Positions 8,974 through 31,375 of a stretch of DNA of 39,711 nt are shown piece after piece. The stretch spans positions 1 through 39,711 of the forward strand of contig SUTR01000020.1 in the NCBI GenBank assembly GCA_015062825.1, written 5' to 3'. The position numbers and the translations under genes are program-made. The notes below the pieces were generated by a model that ran no database searches, was not told the DNA's origin, and worked only from the letters and a program-made list of their open reading frames with translations. The DNA comes from Methanosphaera stadtmanae. GTDB taxonomy: Archaea; Methanobacteriota; Methanobacteria; Methanobacteriales; Methanobacteriaceae. Position 1 is the first letter of the stretch. Each line of letters starts with the position of its first letter.

Positions 8974-9392
8974 TAAAATTCCACCTATTGTGTTTTTTTA
9001 ATCACGGAAAAAAATAATGTTTTTCCCAAATATTATTATGTCAGAAGTTTGGAAGTGGCTGAAAGTGTTATTGAAATTAATCAAAATTTCGGAAAATAAG
9101 CTAAATTAAAAACATGAATCAACATAAATACCATAATATAAAATATAATAACAATCATTAACAATTAAACACAATAAATATAAAAATCATTAACAATTAA
9201 TAAAAAGAGTGTTACAATAATCAAGGCAATAGTATAAAAAATACACATCAAAAATGCTTAAAAACATAATCTATATTTAATTTGAATAACTTTTCAATAA
9301 ATAAAGAGTTTATTAATAACCATTAACATAATACTTAGTAGGAGAATATTATATTTTTAAAAGAATATTTATCAAAACATGTAGGTGATTTA
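8974..9392. other. Divergent intergenic region between the four-gene operon and frhA
   Basis: No gene seen. The segment is very AT-rich and carries a perfect 16-bp direct repeat, AATCATTAACAATTAA, at 9153-9168 and 9185-9200, with a related CCATTAACATAAT at about 9319. These may be regulator sites for the hydrogenase operon. Two possible frhA ribosome sites are present; the one used is probably AGGTGAT at about 9383-9389. Confidence 0.4.
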
Positions 9393-10613
9393 ATGAGCGA
9401 AACTATTGTAATAAGCCCAACAAGTCGTCAGGAAGGACATGCAGAATTATCAATGGAAGTTGATGATGAAGGAATCGTGACCACAGGACGTTATTTCAGT
9501 ATTACACCAGTACGTGGAATTGAAAAGATGGTTATCGGAAAAAGACCTGAAACAGCACCAGTACTGGTACAGAGAATCTGTGGAGTATGTCCCGTAACAC
9601 ATACATTATCATCAGTTGAAGCAATTGATGATTCATTAAAAATAGATGTTCCAAAGGCAGGAAAGATTCTTAGAGAAATATGTTTAAATGCACATATAAT
9701 AAATAGCCATGCAATACATCAATTTTTAATAGCACCAGACTTCGTGCCAGAAGCAGAATATGACAATGTAGTAAGAAATGTGTCAAAGATAAGAAAACAA
9801 GCACAATATGTTGAAGATGTAGTGGGAGGAGAAGGAATACATCCATCAGACATAAGAATTGGCGGAATGGCACATAACCTTACAAAAAATAGTGTCAACA
9901 AAATAAAAACAAGAATACAGGGACTTAGCAACTTACTTGAAAGTCATGTAGAACAAATAGCAGGACTCGTAGAAGACAAAGAGTTTCCAGAAAATCTGGG
10001 AGTTCATGACAAGGAAGTATTTGCAACAAGCAATACCTATGGTGAACGTAACAACCTTGAACTTACAAAAATAGAAGAAATACTTCCTACATCATGGTAT
10101 GATGATGACACAATAGGCGAAAGAGCCTGTTCACAAATACCATTATACAATGGAGACTGTGTAGAAACAGGTCCTCGAGCCCGTGCAGCAAAATTCCGTA
10201 AATTTGGACAAAAAGGTGTTAAAGCACAGCACCTTGCACGAGCAGAAGAAATGATAAATGCTGCTGAAAGAATCCTTGAACTTATAGACAAACTTGATCC
10301 ATCAGCACAAGTAATGGCAAAATATACACTTGAAGGAACAGATCGTCTTGGTATAGGAGTAATAGAAGGACCACGTGGAACAAATGTACACATGGCCAAA
10401 ATATCATCTGAAGGATATATCAGTGATTACAGAGCTATCGTTCCAACAACATGGAATATACCAACAATGGGAATTGCTACGGAAGGAACACACCATGAAT
10501 ATGCACCACACGTTATAAGAGCATATGATCCATGTCTATCCTGTGCTACCCATATGATAGTTAAAGATGATGATTCCAAAGAAGTATTAAAAGATGAAAT
10601 GATACAATTATAG
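9393..10613 (+). CDS. frhA: Coenzyme F420-reducing [NiFe] hydrogenase, alpha subunit
   Basis: Large catalytic subunit of the F420-reducing hydrogenase, which uses H2 to reduce F420 for methanogenesis and biosynthesis. Both Ni-binding motifs are intact: RICGVC with Cys63 and Cys66, and DPCLSCATH with Cys381, Cys384 and His387. The protein continues 19 residues past His387; this tail should be removed by the maturation protease encoded next. Nickel is bound by Cys throughout, with no sign of selenocysteine. 406 residues is normal for FrhA. AGGTGAT sits just before the ATG. First gene of frhADGB; frhD follows after 9 bases. Confidence 0.96.
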
Positions 10614-10622
10614 GTAATACAA

Positions 10623-11096
10623 ATGTCATATAATCATGAAAATCTTATAGTAGGCTGTGGAAACATACTATTTGGCGATGATGGATTTGGTCCTGAAGTA
10701 ATCAAGTACATGAAAGACAACAACATCACATTTCCTGGAGATACCATATTAATAGACGGTGCAACAAGTGCGCCCCATTACATATTCACATTACCCGAGG
10801 ATAAATGGAGAAACATTATAATAATAGACATTGCAGATATGAATAAAAAGCCTGGCCAAATAGATGTTTTAGACATTGAAGACGTGCTTGAAAGTGAAAG
10901 ATACATGGATGTTCATGGAATATCAGCTACATATCCATTGCATGACCTGAAGGATAAGGTTAACATCAAGATAGTTGCATGTCAACCAGAAAATGTGCCA
11001 ATAGATATGGAGATAGGACTTAGTGATGCTGTAAAAGACAGCATACCCTCTACCATAAAGAAGGTAAGTACAGTGCTGCTAGGATTAATGGAATGA
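10623..11096 (+). CDS. frhD: Hydrogenase maturation endopeptidase for FrhA
   Basis: 157-residue nickel-dependent endopeptidase of the HyaD/HycI type that clips the C-terminal tail of the hydrogenase large subunit after nickel insertion. The N-terminal GCGNILFGDDGFGPEVIKYM contains the conserved Asp-Gly-x-Gly and nearby Glu that sense nickel; LIDGATSAP and IIIDIADMNKKPGQ are further family segments, and DVHGIS carries the conserved His. Its position between frhA and frhG is the standard arrangement in Methanobacteriales. Confidence 0.93.
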   Translation: MSYNHENLIVGCGNILFGDDGFGPEVIKYMKDNNITFPGDTILIDGATSAPHYIFTLPEDKWRNIIIIDIADMNKKPGQIDVLDIEDVLESERYMDVHGISATYPLHDLKDKVNIKIVACQPENVPIDMEIGLSDAVKDSIPSTIKKVSTVLLGLME

Positions 11097-11146
11097 TTAT
11101 ACACAACATATAAGGAGAATTTTAACTAAAAAAAAGGTGATTTTAC

Positions 11147-11926
11147 ATGTTTGATAAACTAAAAAACATGATACAAAACGATTCAAAAAATGAAAGTGCA
11201 CCTAGCAATATAACATCAAATAACAAGAAATTGAAAATAGGTTATATTCACTTATCAGGATGTACTGGAGATTTGATGAGTTTTTCTGAAAACTATGATG
11301 ATTTTGCAGACCTGCTAAATGCCGTGGATATTGTATATGGACAGACATTAGTAGACTGTTGGGACATGCCAAAGATGGACCTGGTACTTATTGAAGGATC
11401 AGTATGTCTTGAGGATGAACATTCAATAAAGGAACTTAAAGAGGCAAGAGAAAAATCCAAACTACTTGTAGCATTAGGTTCATGTGCTGCAACAGGAGGA
11501 TTTACAGTATATGCCAAAGGAGGACAACAGGCACAACCCCAACATTCATCATTTTTAGCATTACAACACTTAGTAAAGGTAGATCTGGCAATACCAGGAT
11601 GTCCACCATCACCACAGATAATTAAAAAAGTATTGCTTGCTGCAATAAACAATGATATGAATTACCTTAGTCCATTCATGGACTTTGCAAAGAATGAAGA
11701 AGCATGTGGATGTGATCTTCAGAAGAAGATAATCAACCAATCAATATGTATTGGATGTGGAGCCTGTGCAGCAGCATGTCCAACAAGGGCAATGACCATG
11801 AAAAATGGAAGACCAAACTTCAACTGTGACAGATGTGTAAAATGCGGATTATGCTATTATCAATGCACACGTAGCTGGTGGCCAATAGATGAAATTAAAA
11901 AGGAAATGGAATTGATGGAGGAATAA
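11147..11926 (+). CDS. frhG: Coenzyme F420-reducing hydrogenase, gamma subunit
   Basis: Small iron-sulfur subunit that carries electrons from the NiFe site to FrhB. The N-terminal half has the proximal-cluster cysteines in [17 protein letters not shown] and PGCPPSP. The C-terminal part is a two-cluster ferredoxin domain: [17 protein letters not shown] and [16 protein letters not shown]. The first 25 residues are a polar Asn/Ser/Lys extension before KIGYIHLSG. The AAAGGTGAT before the ATG gives a clear start. 259 residues; the stop overlaps the ribosome site for frhB. Confidence 0.95.
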
Positions 11927-11930
11927 GTCT

Positions 11931-12833
11931 ATGATAGAAGATTCAGTTCTAGGACCATATCAGGAAATTATTACTGCAAGAGCAAAGGATAAAAAAATAA
12001 GGGGCAAATCCCAAGATGGTGGTATTGTATCAGCAATGCTAATATATGCATTGGAAGAAAATATTATAGATGGAACCATAGTTGCAGGTGAAGGAGATGA
12101 ACCTTGGACTGCAGAGCCTAAAATAGCAACTACCAAGAAGGAAATATTGAAGGCTGCAGGTACCCGTTATACAATGTGTCCAAACATTGCATTGATAAAG
12201 GAAGCAACAAGATCATATGGACTTGAAAAGATTGCAACCATCGGAACACCATGTCAAGTTATGGGAATACGTAAGATGCAAGCATACCCTATGGGTGTAA
12301 GAAACGTTACTGATAAAATAGCATTAAGCATTGGAATATACTGTATGGAAAACTTCCCATACGAATCCCTTAAAACATTCATCTGTGATAGGGCAGGTAC
12401 CACCCCAGCACAGGTTACCAAGATGAACATTAGCAAAGGCAAACTATTCATCAAACACACTAACGCTGAAGAACCATTTGCTATACCAATCAAGGAAACA
12501 CATGGATATGAACAATCAGGATGTAACTACTGTCTTGATTATGTTGCAGAATTATCTGATTTTTCCTGTGGATCTGTTGGTGCAAAAGATGGATGGTCTA
12601 CCATCATAAAAAGAACAAACAAGGGAACCAATCTGATAAATGATGCAATTGACAATGGAATATTAGAATTAACCGAGACTAATGAAGGTAAATTTGGTCT
12701 TGAAATGTTAAGAAAATTATCTGCAAATAAGAAAAAGAAAAATCAGAAAAGAATAGACAAAAAACTGGATATGGGTCTTAAAATACCATTTACCCATTCA
12801 AGTAAAAAAGAAGATGTTCTTGAAAACAGATAA
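11931..12833 (+). CDS. frhB: Coenzyme F420-reducing hydrogenase, beta subunit
   Basis: FAD- and [4Fe-4S]-containing subunit that binds F420 and completes electron transfer from H2. The 300-residue length is a little above the usual value. Family features: SQDGGIVSAMLIYALE near residues 27-42, GTRYTMCPNIALIKEA, KIATIGTPCQVMGIRKM, and the cluster-binding GCNYCLDYVAELSDFSCGSVGAKDGWS. The C-terminus has a Lys-rich tail (KKKKNQKRIDKK). The ATG follows GGAGGAATAAG, which overlaps the frhG stop, so expression is coupled. T-rich DNA after the gene (about 12927 on) is a likely end of the operon. Confidence 0.95.
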   Translation: MIEDSVLGPYQEIITARAKDKKIRGKSQDGGIVSAMLIYALEENIIDGTIVAGEGDEPWTAEPKIATTKKEILKAAGTRYTMCPNIALIKEATRSYGLEKIATIGTPCQVMGIRKMQAYPMGVRNVTDKIALSIGIYCMENFPYESLKTFICDRAGTTPAQVTKMNISKGKLFIKHTNAEEPFAIPIKETHGYEQSGCNYCLDYVAELSDFSCGSVGAKDGWSTIIKRTNKGTNLINDAIDNGILELTETNEGKFGLEMLRKLSANKKKKNQKRIDKKLDMGLKIPFTHSSKKEDVLENR

Positions 12834-28047: not shown

Positions 28048-29343
28048 ATGCATCATCTGACAAGTCAACTAATAATATATAGAAATGACAAGAACCACAT
28101 ATTAACTAATTTATCAGACATATTTAGAGAATATGAAAATAACAATTATCAAAAGGAAAGCTTGATATCTGCAATATATCAACAGATACATAACTTATTA
28201 AACATTGCAACAGACTATGGATTTAATAAAAATCTATGGCATAATTATTTGGCATATATTCTTGCAACGGAAGAAAATCCATTCACACTGGTTAGTGAAA
28301 AGGTTGGAACAAATAATGGCAGTGTGAATGAATTTGTAAAGAATGACTTGAATATCTTTAAGAAGCTCTTTGATTACGATTTCAGTCTGATTGAAGAGGA
28401 CTTGGATATTAACTGTTTTAGTCAACTTCAATCATACACTGCAATAATCAAAGATAAGCAGGTCTATAATAATGATGTAAGCTACAAGGTAATAGAACTT
28501 AGCGATAAGATTGAAAGATGTGAAAGTATTGATGAGTTCTATGATATTATAACATCATTCTATAAACATTATGGAGTGGGAGATCTGGGATTGAATCGTG
28601 CATTTAAACTAACACCCAATACGGATAAACTATTGACTCCAATTACTTCACTTGATGACGTGGTATTAGATGATCTTATAGGATATGATATGCAGAAGAA
28701 TAAGCTTATCGAGAATACTGAAAGCTTTGTCAATGGAAGAGGAGCAAATAATGTGTTGTTATATGGTGATGCCGGAACTGGAAAATCCACCAGCATAAAA
28801 GCCATCCTAAACCAGTACTATGATAAGGGACTTCGTATGATTGAAGTATATAAGCATGAAACACAGTATTTGCCAGATATAATTAGCCTTATAAAAAATC
28901 GTAACTACCGTTTTATATTATATATGGATGATCTGTCATTTGAAGAGTCAGAAACAGAATATAAGTATTTGAAGGCATTGATTGAAGGTGGTATTGAAAC
29001 CAAACCGGATAATGTCCTAATTTATGCAACATCAAATAGACGACATATCATAAAAGAAACTTGGAATGAAAGAACATCAGGCAGTCCTGGTGATATGTAT
29101 AAATCAGATACAATACGTGAAAAGCTTTCATTGGTTGACCGTTTTGGAGTAAAAATAGGATATTATAAGCCAAGCATGAAGGAATACTTTGATATTGTAA
29201 TTAAGAAGGCAAGAGAATATCCTGAAATAACATATAGTGATGAAGAGTTAACCTCACTTGCAAATAAATGGATTATGACACATAGCGGACCATCTGGAAG
29301 AACAGCAGAACAGTTGATTTTACATTTATTGAGTAAAGTATAA
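28048..29343 (+). CDS. DUF815 AAA+ ATPase
   Basis: 431 residues. The N-terminal 200 residues are helical and variable. The ATPase domain starts with [47 protein letters not shown] (Walker A about 240-250). [27 protein letters not shown] gives Walker B, and [12 protein letters not shown] is the sensor-1 strand with the family SNRRH signature. The last part carries the lid and [12 protein letters not shown]. All are diagnostic of DUF815, a widespread ATPase family of unknown role. AGGAGA precedes the ATG. It stands alone after guaAB. Confidence 0.88.
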
Positions 29344-29493
29344 CTTTTCTTCATTAGACATGAATGTTAAACTATAATTAACTCCTACTTATTTTTTTAA
29401 TGAAAATAATACGATATTAAAAATATAAAAGATAATTAATGTTTATTTTTGAATATATAAACATTATTTTACAATAATTTTTTTAAGATTTTT
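29344..29493. other. Gene-free leader of the repeat locus
   Basis: A/T-rich spacer after the DUF815 gene. It contains AACTCCTAC at about 29380-29388, the same C-rich nonamer found in the second small-RNA unit, followed by a T run (about 29391-29399) that may end the DUF815 transcript. Confidence 0.35.
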
Positions 29494-29570
29494 ATTTTTA
29501 GGTATACCCAAACCTTTATATACTACGGAGTACAACATTTAATTGACTAAGAAGTTTAGGTAATCCTAAA
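29494..29570 (+). promoter_or_regulatory. Promoter copy 1 with paired DtxR/IdeR-like boxes
   Basis: Contains TTTAGGTATACCCAAA (29497-29512), TATA box TTTATATA (29515-29522) and TTTAGGTAATCCTAAA (29555-29570). The second box is a 6-bp perfect inverted repeat around TAAT and closely follows the known DtxR/IdeR core TTAGG-N4-CCTAA. The upstream box abuts the TFB-recognition side of the TATA element; the downstream box falls about 10-25 bases after the expected start at about 29545. Repressor binding at either would block transcription. All 77 bp recur without change at 30150-30226. Confidence 0.7.
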
Positions 29571-29805
29571 ATCATAGTCAGATGTAGAGTTAAAAAAAGA
29601 ATTTGATAAGACTATTACTCCTACAAAAATAAATAGTTTTAAATATAAAAATCGCCTATTATAAAAAAACTCTAAATCACACTCCTTATTAAATAAAACA
29701 CGATATAACTTGTAAAAAAACATATAAGAAAATAAAAACTCCCTAAAAAGCTTAAAAAAAAGAAAAGCTATACAATTATTTTCTTTATATTTTTATTTAT
29801 TTTTA
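29545..29805 (+). ncRNA. Putative small RNA, unit 1, with C-rich islands
   Basis: Expected transcript from promoter copy 1 to a T-rich stretch (about 29776-29805). It has no reading frame of note and no stable hairpin. Short C-rich islands stand out of A/U-rich spacers: CTCCT (29618-29622), CGCCT (29653-29657), CTCCT (29682-29686) and CTCCCT (29739-29744). The block 29680-29722 is identical over 43 bases to 30399-30441 in unit 2, while spacers differ. CUCCU matches the 3' end of archaeal 16S rRNA and would pair with AGGAG ribosome sites. Role as a metal-responsive regulator of translation is inferred. Confidence 0.5.
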
Positions 29806-30149
29806 ACCCAAAACTGATTTTATCAAAATATTGAATTTACAATAAAATTAATAATAGATCAAATCTTTGACAAAATTTTTGATAGAAAAAAGAATTACTC
29901 CTAAAAAAAATGAATAATATTTTTTTCATTTTAAAATAATATGATTGTCTTTGCTCAAAACAAAGCAAGAAATTACAAAAAAGATAATTTTATCCGACAC
30001 CCTATTAAAAAAATATTTAAGTGTATTTTAAGATAATGATAATAGTTCATCCTTAGAATTAGATATATAATTTTATAAATATTAATATTTTAAATATAAA
30101 TAAAATTAGGTCTTTAAAAAGTAAAATATTTTATTTAAAAAGTTTAAAA

Positions 30150-30226
30150 ATTTTTAGGTATACCCAAACCTTTATATACTACGGAGTACAACATTTAATT
30201 GACTAAGAAGTTTAGGTAATCCTAAA
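30150..30226 (+). promoter_or_regulatory. Promoter copy 2 with paired DtxR/IdeR-like boxes
   Basis: Identical over 77 bp to 29494-29570. Boxes at 30153-30168 and 30211-30226 and the TATA element at 30171-30178 keep the same spacing. Flanking DNA diverges immediately on both sides, so the promoter block is under constraint or was recently converted. Confidence 0.7.
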
Positions 30227-30526
30227 TTCAAAGATGGATGAAAAAACTTCAAAGTCAAAAACAAGAGTTAAATCAAAAAAGACAAAAAAGAATCAAAAAA
30301 ACTATTAACTCCTACAAAAAATAAAATAGTTTAAAAATATATTAAATCACCTATTATACAAAACGATTCTAAATAAGTCAAAAAATGAAAAAACTCACCA
30401 CTCCTTATTAAATAAAACACGATATAACTTGTAAAAAAACAAAAAAAGAAAATACAAAACTCCCTAATAATAGACGTTAAGTCTAATGAAAGTTATTTTC
30501 TTTTCTTGTATTATTAACTTTTTTTA
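30201..30526 (+). ncRNA. Putative small RNA, unit 2, with C-rich islands
   Basis: Paralogue of unit 1, about 325 bases, ending at the T run 30519-30525. Its islands are CTCCT (30310-30314), CACCT (30348-30352), CTCCT (30401-30405) and CTCCCT (30460-30465), in the same order as unit 1. CACCT against CGCCT in unit 1 keeps complementarity to AGGUG-type ribosome sites. Spacing between promoter and first island is longer than in unit 1, with an A-rich insertion. No protein of any length is encoded. It runs toward the end of the minus-strand P5C-reductase-like gene, whose message it could touch. Confidence 0.5.
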
Positions 30527-30544
30527 ATGAAATTAACTTAAAGA

Positions 30545-31375
30545 TTACTTTTTAATTAAATCAGCAACTGCTTCTGGAGAAATTAAATTATTTTCAGGAT
30601 TTGACACCTGTTTATTACGTTCTAATCCTTTAAGAAGTGAATCATATAAATCATTTCCATCATCTAAACTGCGTATAATAGCTGCAGTTATGCCACCAGG
30701 TGTTGAAAACTTCTCAATAAATTCATCCTTATTATTCTTAGGAACAAGATTTTTAGCCTTTTGTGACAATTCTATAAATTCAGTACAATCACCGGCAATT
30801 TTTCTAATAGCATCTATATTTTCTTTACTATCTGCATCAACTTTACAATAGACTGCAGGAAGACAACCTGCAAGTACCATTAAATCCATTTTATCCTCAT
30901 CACCTACAATATAATATTCCATATCCCATAGTTTAAAGAACTCTTCTGCCAAGCCATTTGATGGATATGCACCAGCAATACTTGTTGAGTCTAAAATAGT
31001 ATCAGGCCCTGTTGGTATAATTCTTATGATATTGTTTGATCCTGTCTGTTTTTTAATCTCATCAATACTTATTCCTGCCATAAATGATATTACCAGTTTA
31101 TCATCAGTAATTCCAAAGTCACCTATTTGTTTAAATGCCTGAGGTGGTACACTTAGAATAATTATATCAGATTCATCTACAATTCGTGCATTGTCACTTA
31201 TCATATCAACAAGGTTGTTGTCATATAATTTCTCAAATGTAAATATTGAACCTCTATAGGTTAATTTGATATTGTCTTCTGGATATCCCTTTTCCAATAA
31301 CTTCAGTATTAAGGACAAGCCTATGTTTCCAGCACCAATAATTCCCAATTTATTCTTAAACAATTCCTTATTCAT
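30545..31375 (-). CDS. Pyrroline-5-carboxylate reductase-like NAD(P)-dependent oxidoreductase
   Basis: 276 residues with the ProC layout. The Rossmann motif LGIIGAGNIGLSLILKLLEKG is at residues 10-30, SDIIILSVPPQAF follows the dinucleotide-binding core, and near the C-terminus STPGGITAAIIRSLDDG is the P5CR signature. It would reduce pyrroline-5-carboxylate to proline, but methanogens carry several ProC-like proteins of uncertain substrate and no other proline gene is nearby, so I leave the symbol empty. The ATG has no ribosome site, so the message may be leaderless. Its 3' end faces the duplicated small-RNA locus. Confidence 0.8.
   Translation of the reverse strand: MNKELFKNKLGIIGAGNIGLSLILKLLEKGYPEDNIKLTYRGSIFTFEKLYDNNLVDMISDNARIVDESDIIILSVPPQAFKQIGDFGITDDKLVISFMAGISIDEIKKQTGSNNIIRIIPTGPDTILDSTSIAGAYPSNGLAEEFFKLWDMEYYIVGDEDKMDLMVLAGCLPAVYCKVDADSKENIDAIRKIAGDCTEFIELSQKAKNLVPKNNKDEFIEKFSTPGGITAAIIRSLDDGNDLYDSLLKGLERNKQVSNPENNLISPEAVADLIKK

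Follow-up and report, generated by a model that had tools for sequence, protein, structure and literature searches.

FsrA of Bacillus subtilis is controlled by iron and binds the Shine–Dalgarno sequence through a C-rich motif (PMC9410917). IsrR of Staphylococcus is conserved throughout its genus, has two repressor boxes, folds into stem-loops with a terminator and presents several single-stranded C-rich regions; its predicted targets are Fe-S enzymes, and in its AT-rich host G-rich stretches mark Shine–Dalgarno sites (PMC9410917). Control by IdeR, an iron repressor of the DtxR family, has been predicted for MrsI of Mycobacterium, while Pseudomonas carries duplicated iron-sparing small RNA (sRNA) genes, PrrF1 and PrrF2 (PMC9410917). 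Among archaeal RNAs, sRNA162, sRNA154 and sRNA41 of Methanosarcina mazei mask ribosome sites (PMC3510493, PMC5867862); sRNA154 does so through an anti-RBS loop and stabilises some mRNAs (PMC5867862). In the literature covered, mostly non-subscription papers, we found no study of a Methanosphaera sRNA, no DtxR-controlled archaeal sRNA and no report of an iron-responsive trans-acting sRNA in archaea.

The locus described here lies in a 39,711-nucleotide stretch of Methanosphaera stadtmanae DNA, hereafter the window, and consists of two similar units. The original prediction, made from the letters of the window, took them for a duplicated sRNA with anti-Shine–Dalgarno islands behind metal-box promoters. 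Our computational follow-up finds conservation, structure, boxes and complementarity in the DNA itself, and the units are probably best read as two tandem copies of a trans-acting iron-sparing sRNA controlled by a DtxR/IdeR-type repressor, analogous but not homologous to FsrA and IsrR.

The Methanosphaera RNA shares with IsrR conservation across a genus, two boxes, stem-loops followed by a terminator, C-rich single-stranded regions, an AT-rich host and predicted Fe-S targets. It differs in its archaeal promoter, in boxes of the DtxR rather than the Fur type, in the lack of an Rfam match, in its two to four copies in many genomes, in predicted targets that are enzymes of methanogenesis, and in being known from sequence alone. 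With FsrA it would have in common a C-rich motif directed against Shine–Dalgarno sites and control by iron; FsrA, however, is bacterial, Fur-controlled and accompanied by the chaperones FbpABC, and has no sequence match to the Methanosphaera RNA. A DtxR-family iron repressor is predicted for both MrsI and the present RNA, and paralogous copies are also a feature of PrrF1 and PrrF2, whose genes stand in tandem; unlike either, the Methanosphaera RNA is archaeal, has other predicted targets and matches no Rfam family. The Methanosarcina sRNAs are likewise archaeal RNAs on ribosome sites, as is predicted here, but they are tied to nitrogen or carbon source, not iron, and the two-island pattern of the present RNA occurs in the GTDB search only in Methanosphaera or Methanobacteriaceae genomes. 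On this comparison, the strategy is an already known one; the family, the domain of life and the set of regulator and targets are new.

No Rfam model matched the window at its gathering score, and over 29300-30600 only chance matches below that score were seen. Membership in FsrA, IsrR or another Rfam family was rejected, a result that holds for RNAs having Rfam models.

Layout of the duplicated locus

Units A (29494-29810) and B (30150-30526) lie on the plus strand in gene-free surroundings, flanked by an AAA/Orc1-like gene at 28048-29343 and, on the minus strand, by a convergent proC-like gene at 30545-31375 (Table 1). As had been claimed, 656 bp separate their starts, they share an identical promoter block (TTTTTAGGTATACCCAAACCTTTATATACTACGGAGTACAACATTTAATTGACTAAGAAGTTTAGGTAATCCTAAA), and direct comparison finds the islands in the same order; judged by their sequences, the units are two copies of one non-coding gene. 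Each promoter has two palindromes, one abutting the BRE/TATA element and one just past the predicted start. The TATA centre lies 26 nt upstream of the G where the 5' stem begins, the archaeal promoter being flush with that stem. The bounds of the unit A sRNA were derived from this promoter spacing, the 5' stem beginning at that G, and the 3' hairpin with its U-tract, the end being approximate and placed within the T-rich tract.

Table 1. Features of the two units and of the predicted frh target sites (positions in the window)
Feature	Position	Strand	Sequence	Remark
Unit A metal box 1	29497..29512	+	TTTAGGTATACCCAAA	upstream of and touching BRE/TATA
Unit A BRE/TATA element	29513..29522	+	CCTTTATATA	
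Unit A sRNA (predicted)	29545..29810	+		start at G of GACTAAG, ~26 nt past TATA centre
Unit A metal box 2	29555..29570	+	TTTAGGTAATCCTAAA	at about +11
Unit A island 1	29609..29626	+	AGACTATTACTCCTACAA	CUCCU in hairpin loop
Unit A island 2	29648..29662	+	AAAATCGCCTATTAT	
Unit A island 3	29680..29690	+	CACTCCTTATT	
Unit A island 5	29735..29746	+	AAAACTCCCTAA	in terminal hairpin loop
Unit B metal box 1	30153..30168	+		
Unit B BRE/TATA element	30169..30178	+		
Unit B sRNA (predicted)	30201..30526	+		about 326 nt
Unit B metal box 2	30211..30226	+		
Unit B island 1	30300..30317	+	AACTATTAACTCCTACAA	
Unit B island 2	30342..30358	+	TTAAATCACCTATTATA	contains AUCACCU of 16S tail; island with target evidence
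Unit B island 3	30392..30409	+	AACTCACCACTCCTTATT	AACUC pairs with GAGUU at 30265-30269, closing a stem
Unit B conserved AU-rich block	30416..30432	+	AACACGATATAACTTGT	
Unit B island 5	30456..30467	+	AAAACTCCCTAA	in terminal hairpin loop
Unit B terminal hairpin 3' strand and T-tract	30493..30526	+	TTATTTTCTTT	presumed terminator
Predicted frhA target site	9382..9394	+	TAGGTGATTTAAT	ribosome site, reaching into start codon; perfectly complementary to unit B island 2 over 13 nt
frhA, F420-reducing NiFe hydrogenase large subunit	9393..10613	+		first gene of frhADGB (9393-12833)
Weaker predicted site, frhG ribosome site	11135..11143	+	AGGTGATTT	duplex -20.7 kcal/mol with unit B

Between the units (29864-29982) lies an element of ~115 bp that also contains ATTACTCCT. 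Copies 72-83% similar to it occur on contigs C5, C38, C30 and C107 of the same genome, each at most about 2 kb from a contig end.

Distribution of the RNA

The genome of the window has a third copy on a different contig (G000:C87:17297-17603; 80% identical, E 1e-74). The search of related Methanosphaera genomes suggested with the original prediction has now been run and yields about 45 copies or fragments in 18-19 of 20 genomes, many genomes carrying two to four copies. By BLAST, relatives are present in 19 of the 20, and in 13 of the 13 good genomes, if the weak hit in G014 is counted; presence in G014 was not accepted, the similarity being weak and the boxes absent. An iterated profile search over the fetched loci returned 45 matches (38 spanning most of the model), and a covariance model recovered the RNA in 16 of the 20 genomes. 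With strict filters the covariance model found it in none of 80 genomes from 16 sister genera, a setting at which divergent copies that BLAST detects (G001, G013) were missed. The exact two-island pattern has nine matches among 84,980 GTDB species, all in Methanosphaera or uncultured Methanobacteriaceae. Together, the third copy and the genus-wide copies exclude chance as the source of the likeness between units A and B. A viral origin was rejected, the two-island pattern having no match in the viral contigs searched.

Probable iron boxes and a DtxR-family protein

The perfect palindrome TTTAGGTNNACCTAAA occurs 47 times in the 20 genomes, and its reversed control not once. Apart from the RNA copies, it lies 18-36 bp before feoB in many genomes (22 bp in the genome of the window) and also between sufC and mvhD. 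Because the same palindrome precedes feoB, a gene for ferrous iron transport, iron is the likeliest metal and the metal box would most likely be an iron box; the promoter would thus carry iron-repressor boxes, as expected of an iron-sparing sRNA. The best DtxR-family protein of the genome has the domains Fe_dep_repress, Fe_dep_repr_C and FeoA, that is, a DNA-binding, a metal-binding and a FeoA domain, and carries the Cys-x-x-Glu-His ligand motif, its ACAMEH aligning with EACRWEH of IdeR. Among NCBIfam models, the best full-length ones for this protein include MntR and DtxR, all below cut-off, and they do not discriminate between the two. A regulator with the N- and C-domains of DtxR and the ligand motif is therefore encoded, as would be required for a DtxR/IdeR regulon. 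Collectively, the palindrome before feoB across the genus and this protein with its IdeR motif strengthen the earlier proposal of iron control by a DtxR-type repressor.

Perfect copies of the iron-box palindrome were also seen in several Methanosphaera genomes before a gene for an LCM-domain methyltransferase (loci L089, L118, L132 and L146); others lie before a gene for a LolD-like ABC transporter (L091, L116, L130 and L145). At the latter site, some genomes also have a divergent gene, encoding a coiled-coil-like protein of about 100 aa.

Predicted targets of island 2

Targets were predicted on the whole chromosome G017 (1,767,403 bp), which we take to be that of M. stadtmanae DSM 3091, with 1471 genes called by a simple rule. 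The longest complement to island 2 in any ribosome-site window belongs to hdrA (14 nt, rank 1 of 1471) and the second longest to frhA (13-14 nt, rank 2); ranked by duplex energy, frhA is second and hdrA fourth. Hcp, rubrerythrin and the NifU/IscU scaffold are also among the top ten. Certain iron proteins number only five in the top 20, all of them in the top ten, and the 20 control genes, which have other GGTGA sites and were limited to low island-2 scores, include one for a subunit of an Fe-S enzyme. Target prediction strengthened the original expectation for island 2. Islands 1 and 3 have no more long complements in M. stadtmanae than the reversed island, and islands 4 and 5 show a small excess over the reversed control, with no significant iron bias by a Cys-motif proxy for Fe-S proteins.

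In the window, 17 kb separate the sRNA units from the frhADGB operon, which is upstream of them and on the same strand. Operon and RNA share a strand in several other genomes too, and in some the operon is just upstream of the RNA.

Across the genus, the 13-mer AATAGGTGATTTA, the complement of island 2, was searched in the 20 genomes irrespective of genes, with the RNA copies and in-frame coding matches (Ile-Gly-Asp-Leu) left out of the tally. It stands at the hdrA ribosome site in 16 of the 20 genomes and at the frhA start in G001, G004, G010 and G017, read directly, and in G011, by position. Other matches at gene starts concern ferredoxins of two kinds (four matches), HdrC, rubrerythrin, the gamma subunit of 2-oxoacid:ferredoxin oxidoreductase and a flavoprotein of the FMN-reductase type; the rest are a DGC-domain protein, a methyltransferase, a membrane protein and one doubtful short frame. 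Every Methanosphaera frhA read has a perfect complement of 12-16 nt to island 2, and across the fetched neighbourhoods, about 0.5 Mb in all, a complement of at least 11 nt is limited to eight genes, four or five of them frhA. For hdrA, the complement measures 14 nt in 16 of 16 Methanosphaera genes read; as this set was picked for carrying the 13-mer, the claim is one of 16 in 20 genomes and not of all, and the matches, being orthologous, are not independent. Complementarity to the mRNAs of iron proteins, which an iron-sparing sRNA should display, is thus present for island 2 (hdrA, frhA, ferredoxins and rubrerythrin). The anti-Shine–Dalgarno claim holds up to the same extent: island 2 has perfect complements of 12-16 nt at the frhA and hdrA ribosome sites genus-wide, and the other islands are unproven.

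These matches could in principle reflect an iron-controlled general damper of translation with low specificity, its hits on iron genes following from common AGGUGAUUU ribosome sites. We consider this unlikely. While the island cores do equal the complement of the 16S tail, the conservation of island 2 spans 14-17 nt and so extends beyond the core. With 111 occurrences, AGGTGA is common among the ribosome-site hexamers of M. stadtmanae, and many non-iron genes carry AGGUGA, yet long complements number 15-17 for island 2 vs 1-2 for the reversed island. Elongation factor 2 and further non-iron genes within the top 20 would suit a general damper, whereas most start-site matches of the 13-mer across the 20 genomes fall on iron-protein genes. 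Further, the Cys-motif proxy shows enrichment for island 2 (p 0.002 by rank test; five in the top 40 vs 1.7 expected), though the test alone is modest, since in 8% of trials flank-shuffled islands yield a top-40 count at least as high; by the same proxy, no iron-sulphur bias is seen with the plain 16S tail (p 0.32).

Conservation and structure of the RNA

The original prediction required islands to vary less freely than spacers, and over 32 copies they do: islands have a mean majority fraction of 0.85 and spacers one of 0.56 (Mann–Whitney p 1e-22), a difference that persists when only A/T positions are considered (p 8e-17). The statement that only short islands are conserved was too narrow, as the islands are kept within wider blocks of 12-18 nt with AU-rich flanks, and the non-C-rich GAGUUAAA and AACAUAAUAUAACUUGU are conserved besides the C-rich blocks, as is the terminal hairpin. 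Similarly, the spacers, described as drifted, are indeed less conserved, but consist in part of paired stems with compensatory changes.

Nearly all copies have islands 2 and 3, whereas islands 1, 4 and 5 are missing from some paralogues. An iron-controlled RNA acting mainly through protein binding or sponging, or through mRNA stabilisation, with the complementarity of island 2 secondary, would account for the absence of islands 1 or 5 from some copies and for the conservation of GAGUUAAA and the AU-rich block AACAUAAUAUAACUUGU, neither of which has target evidence; stabilisation of some mRNAs by sRNA154 (PMC5867862) offers an archaeal precedent. This route is less likely still than general damping, for no other features of the transcript are as constant as islands 2 and 3, which lie unpaired.

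In the predicted fold, GACUAAGAA and its complement form the 5' stem, GAGUU and the AACUC of island 3 form a second stem, an AACUAUU/AAUAGUU stem encloses island 1, and the terminal hairpin AAAGAAAAUAA/UUAUUUUCUUU encloses island 5 and is followed by a T-tract; an inner stem is also present and varies between copies. The predicted unpaired fraction is 0.80-0.90 for the cores of islands 1, 2, 3 and 5 vs 0.50 elsewhere. In an alignment-free test, which leaves the relatedness of copies in, swapping partner strands between copies makes pairing worse (P about 0.0005 each for the 5' stem, inner stem and terminal hairpin, 0.0015 for the GAG stem and 0.024 for the island-1 stem). In the alignment, pairing in the 5' stem reaches 95%, and three of its five pairs show compensatory double changes.

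A reading of the units as genes for short peptides or as cis-acting leaders, and not as sRNAs, can practically be dismissed. Although ORFs of up to 43 codons occur in single copies, the conserved peptide named beforehand as evidence against an sRNA was looked for across the copies and not found; the stems change in a compensatory manner, and since the gene after unit B is convergent, unit B is not a leader. Coding potential was rejected on the same ground of non-conserved ORFs. Covarying stems, a promoter flush with the 5' stem, a 3' hairpin with U-tract and no conserved ORF together argue for a structured RNA of about 250-350 nt.

Proposed mechanism

For the preferred reading, an iron-sparing sRNA under a DtxR/IdeR-type repressor, the following course can be envisaged. 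When iron is sufficient, the repressor would sit on both palindromes and silence the sRNA gene, together with feoB and suf. When iron is low, the RNA would be made, about 250-350 nt long with several stem arms and a 3' hairpin and U-tract, and would expose its C-rich single-stranded segments. Island 2 (UUAAAUCACCUAUU) would then bind mRNAs that encode iron-rich enzymes, mainly hdrA and frhA and also those for ferredoxins, rubrerythrin and Hcp, by pairing with their ribosome sites and, for some of them, with the start codon as well; pairing would block their translation, and iron would be saved. We infer that the RNA is transcribed under iron control, that it pairs with mRNAs in the cell and that it represses translation; the same goes for any role of the islands other than island 2.

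HdrA and FrhA are core electron-bifurcating and hydrogenase machinery of methanogenesis. If the reading is right, the combination of an iron repressor, a C-rich RNA and the ribosome sites of iron enzymes arose in two domains of life, and the RNA ties methane production by gut archaea to iron supply. The prediction is concrete, consisting of 13-16-nt duplexes in a cultured species, and cheap to test.

The hdrA ribosome site within and beyond the genus

In 30 genomes from 16 genera that lack the RNA, the hdrA start mostly reads ACTTGTACAAGGTGAT, with an island-2 complement of 6-9 nt; 11 of the 30 genes match over 12 nt (AGGTGATTTAAT type), where TTTAATG comes after the site. It seems rather likely, if less so than the reading of the locus itself, that archaea evolved, independently of bacteria, an iron-sparing sRNA under IdeR-type control that represses HdrA and FrhA at the ribosome site, and that the hdrA site of this genus changed to fit.

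The hdrA genes of the other Methanobacteriaceae genera (16 genera, loci L287-L316) share a conserved palindrome, CTTGTACAAG, that runs into the Shine–Dalgarno sequence (ACTTGTACAAGGTGAT) and that Methanosphaera hdrA does not have; it has the appearance of an hdrA control element. The Methanosphaera hdrA leaders (e.g. L285 and L279) contain ATAGTCTTAAT, which is complementary to the AAGACTAT of many sRNA inner stems, in an order that is not co-linear with island 2.
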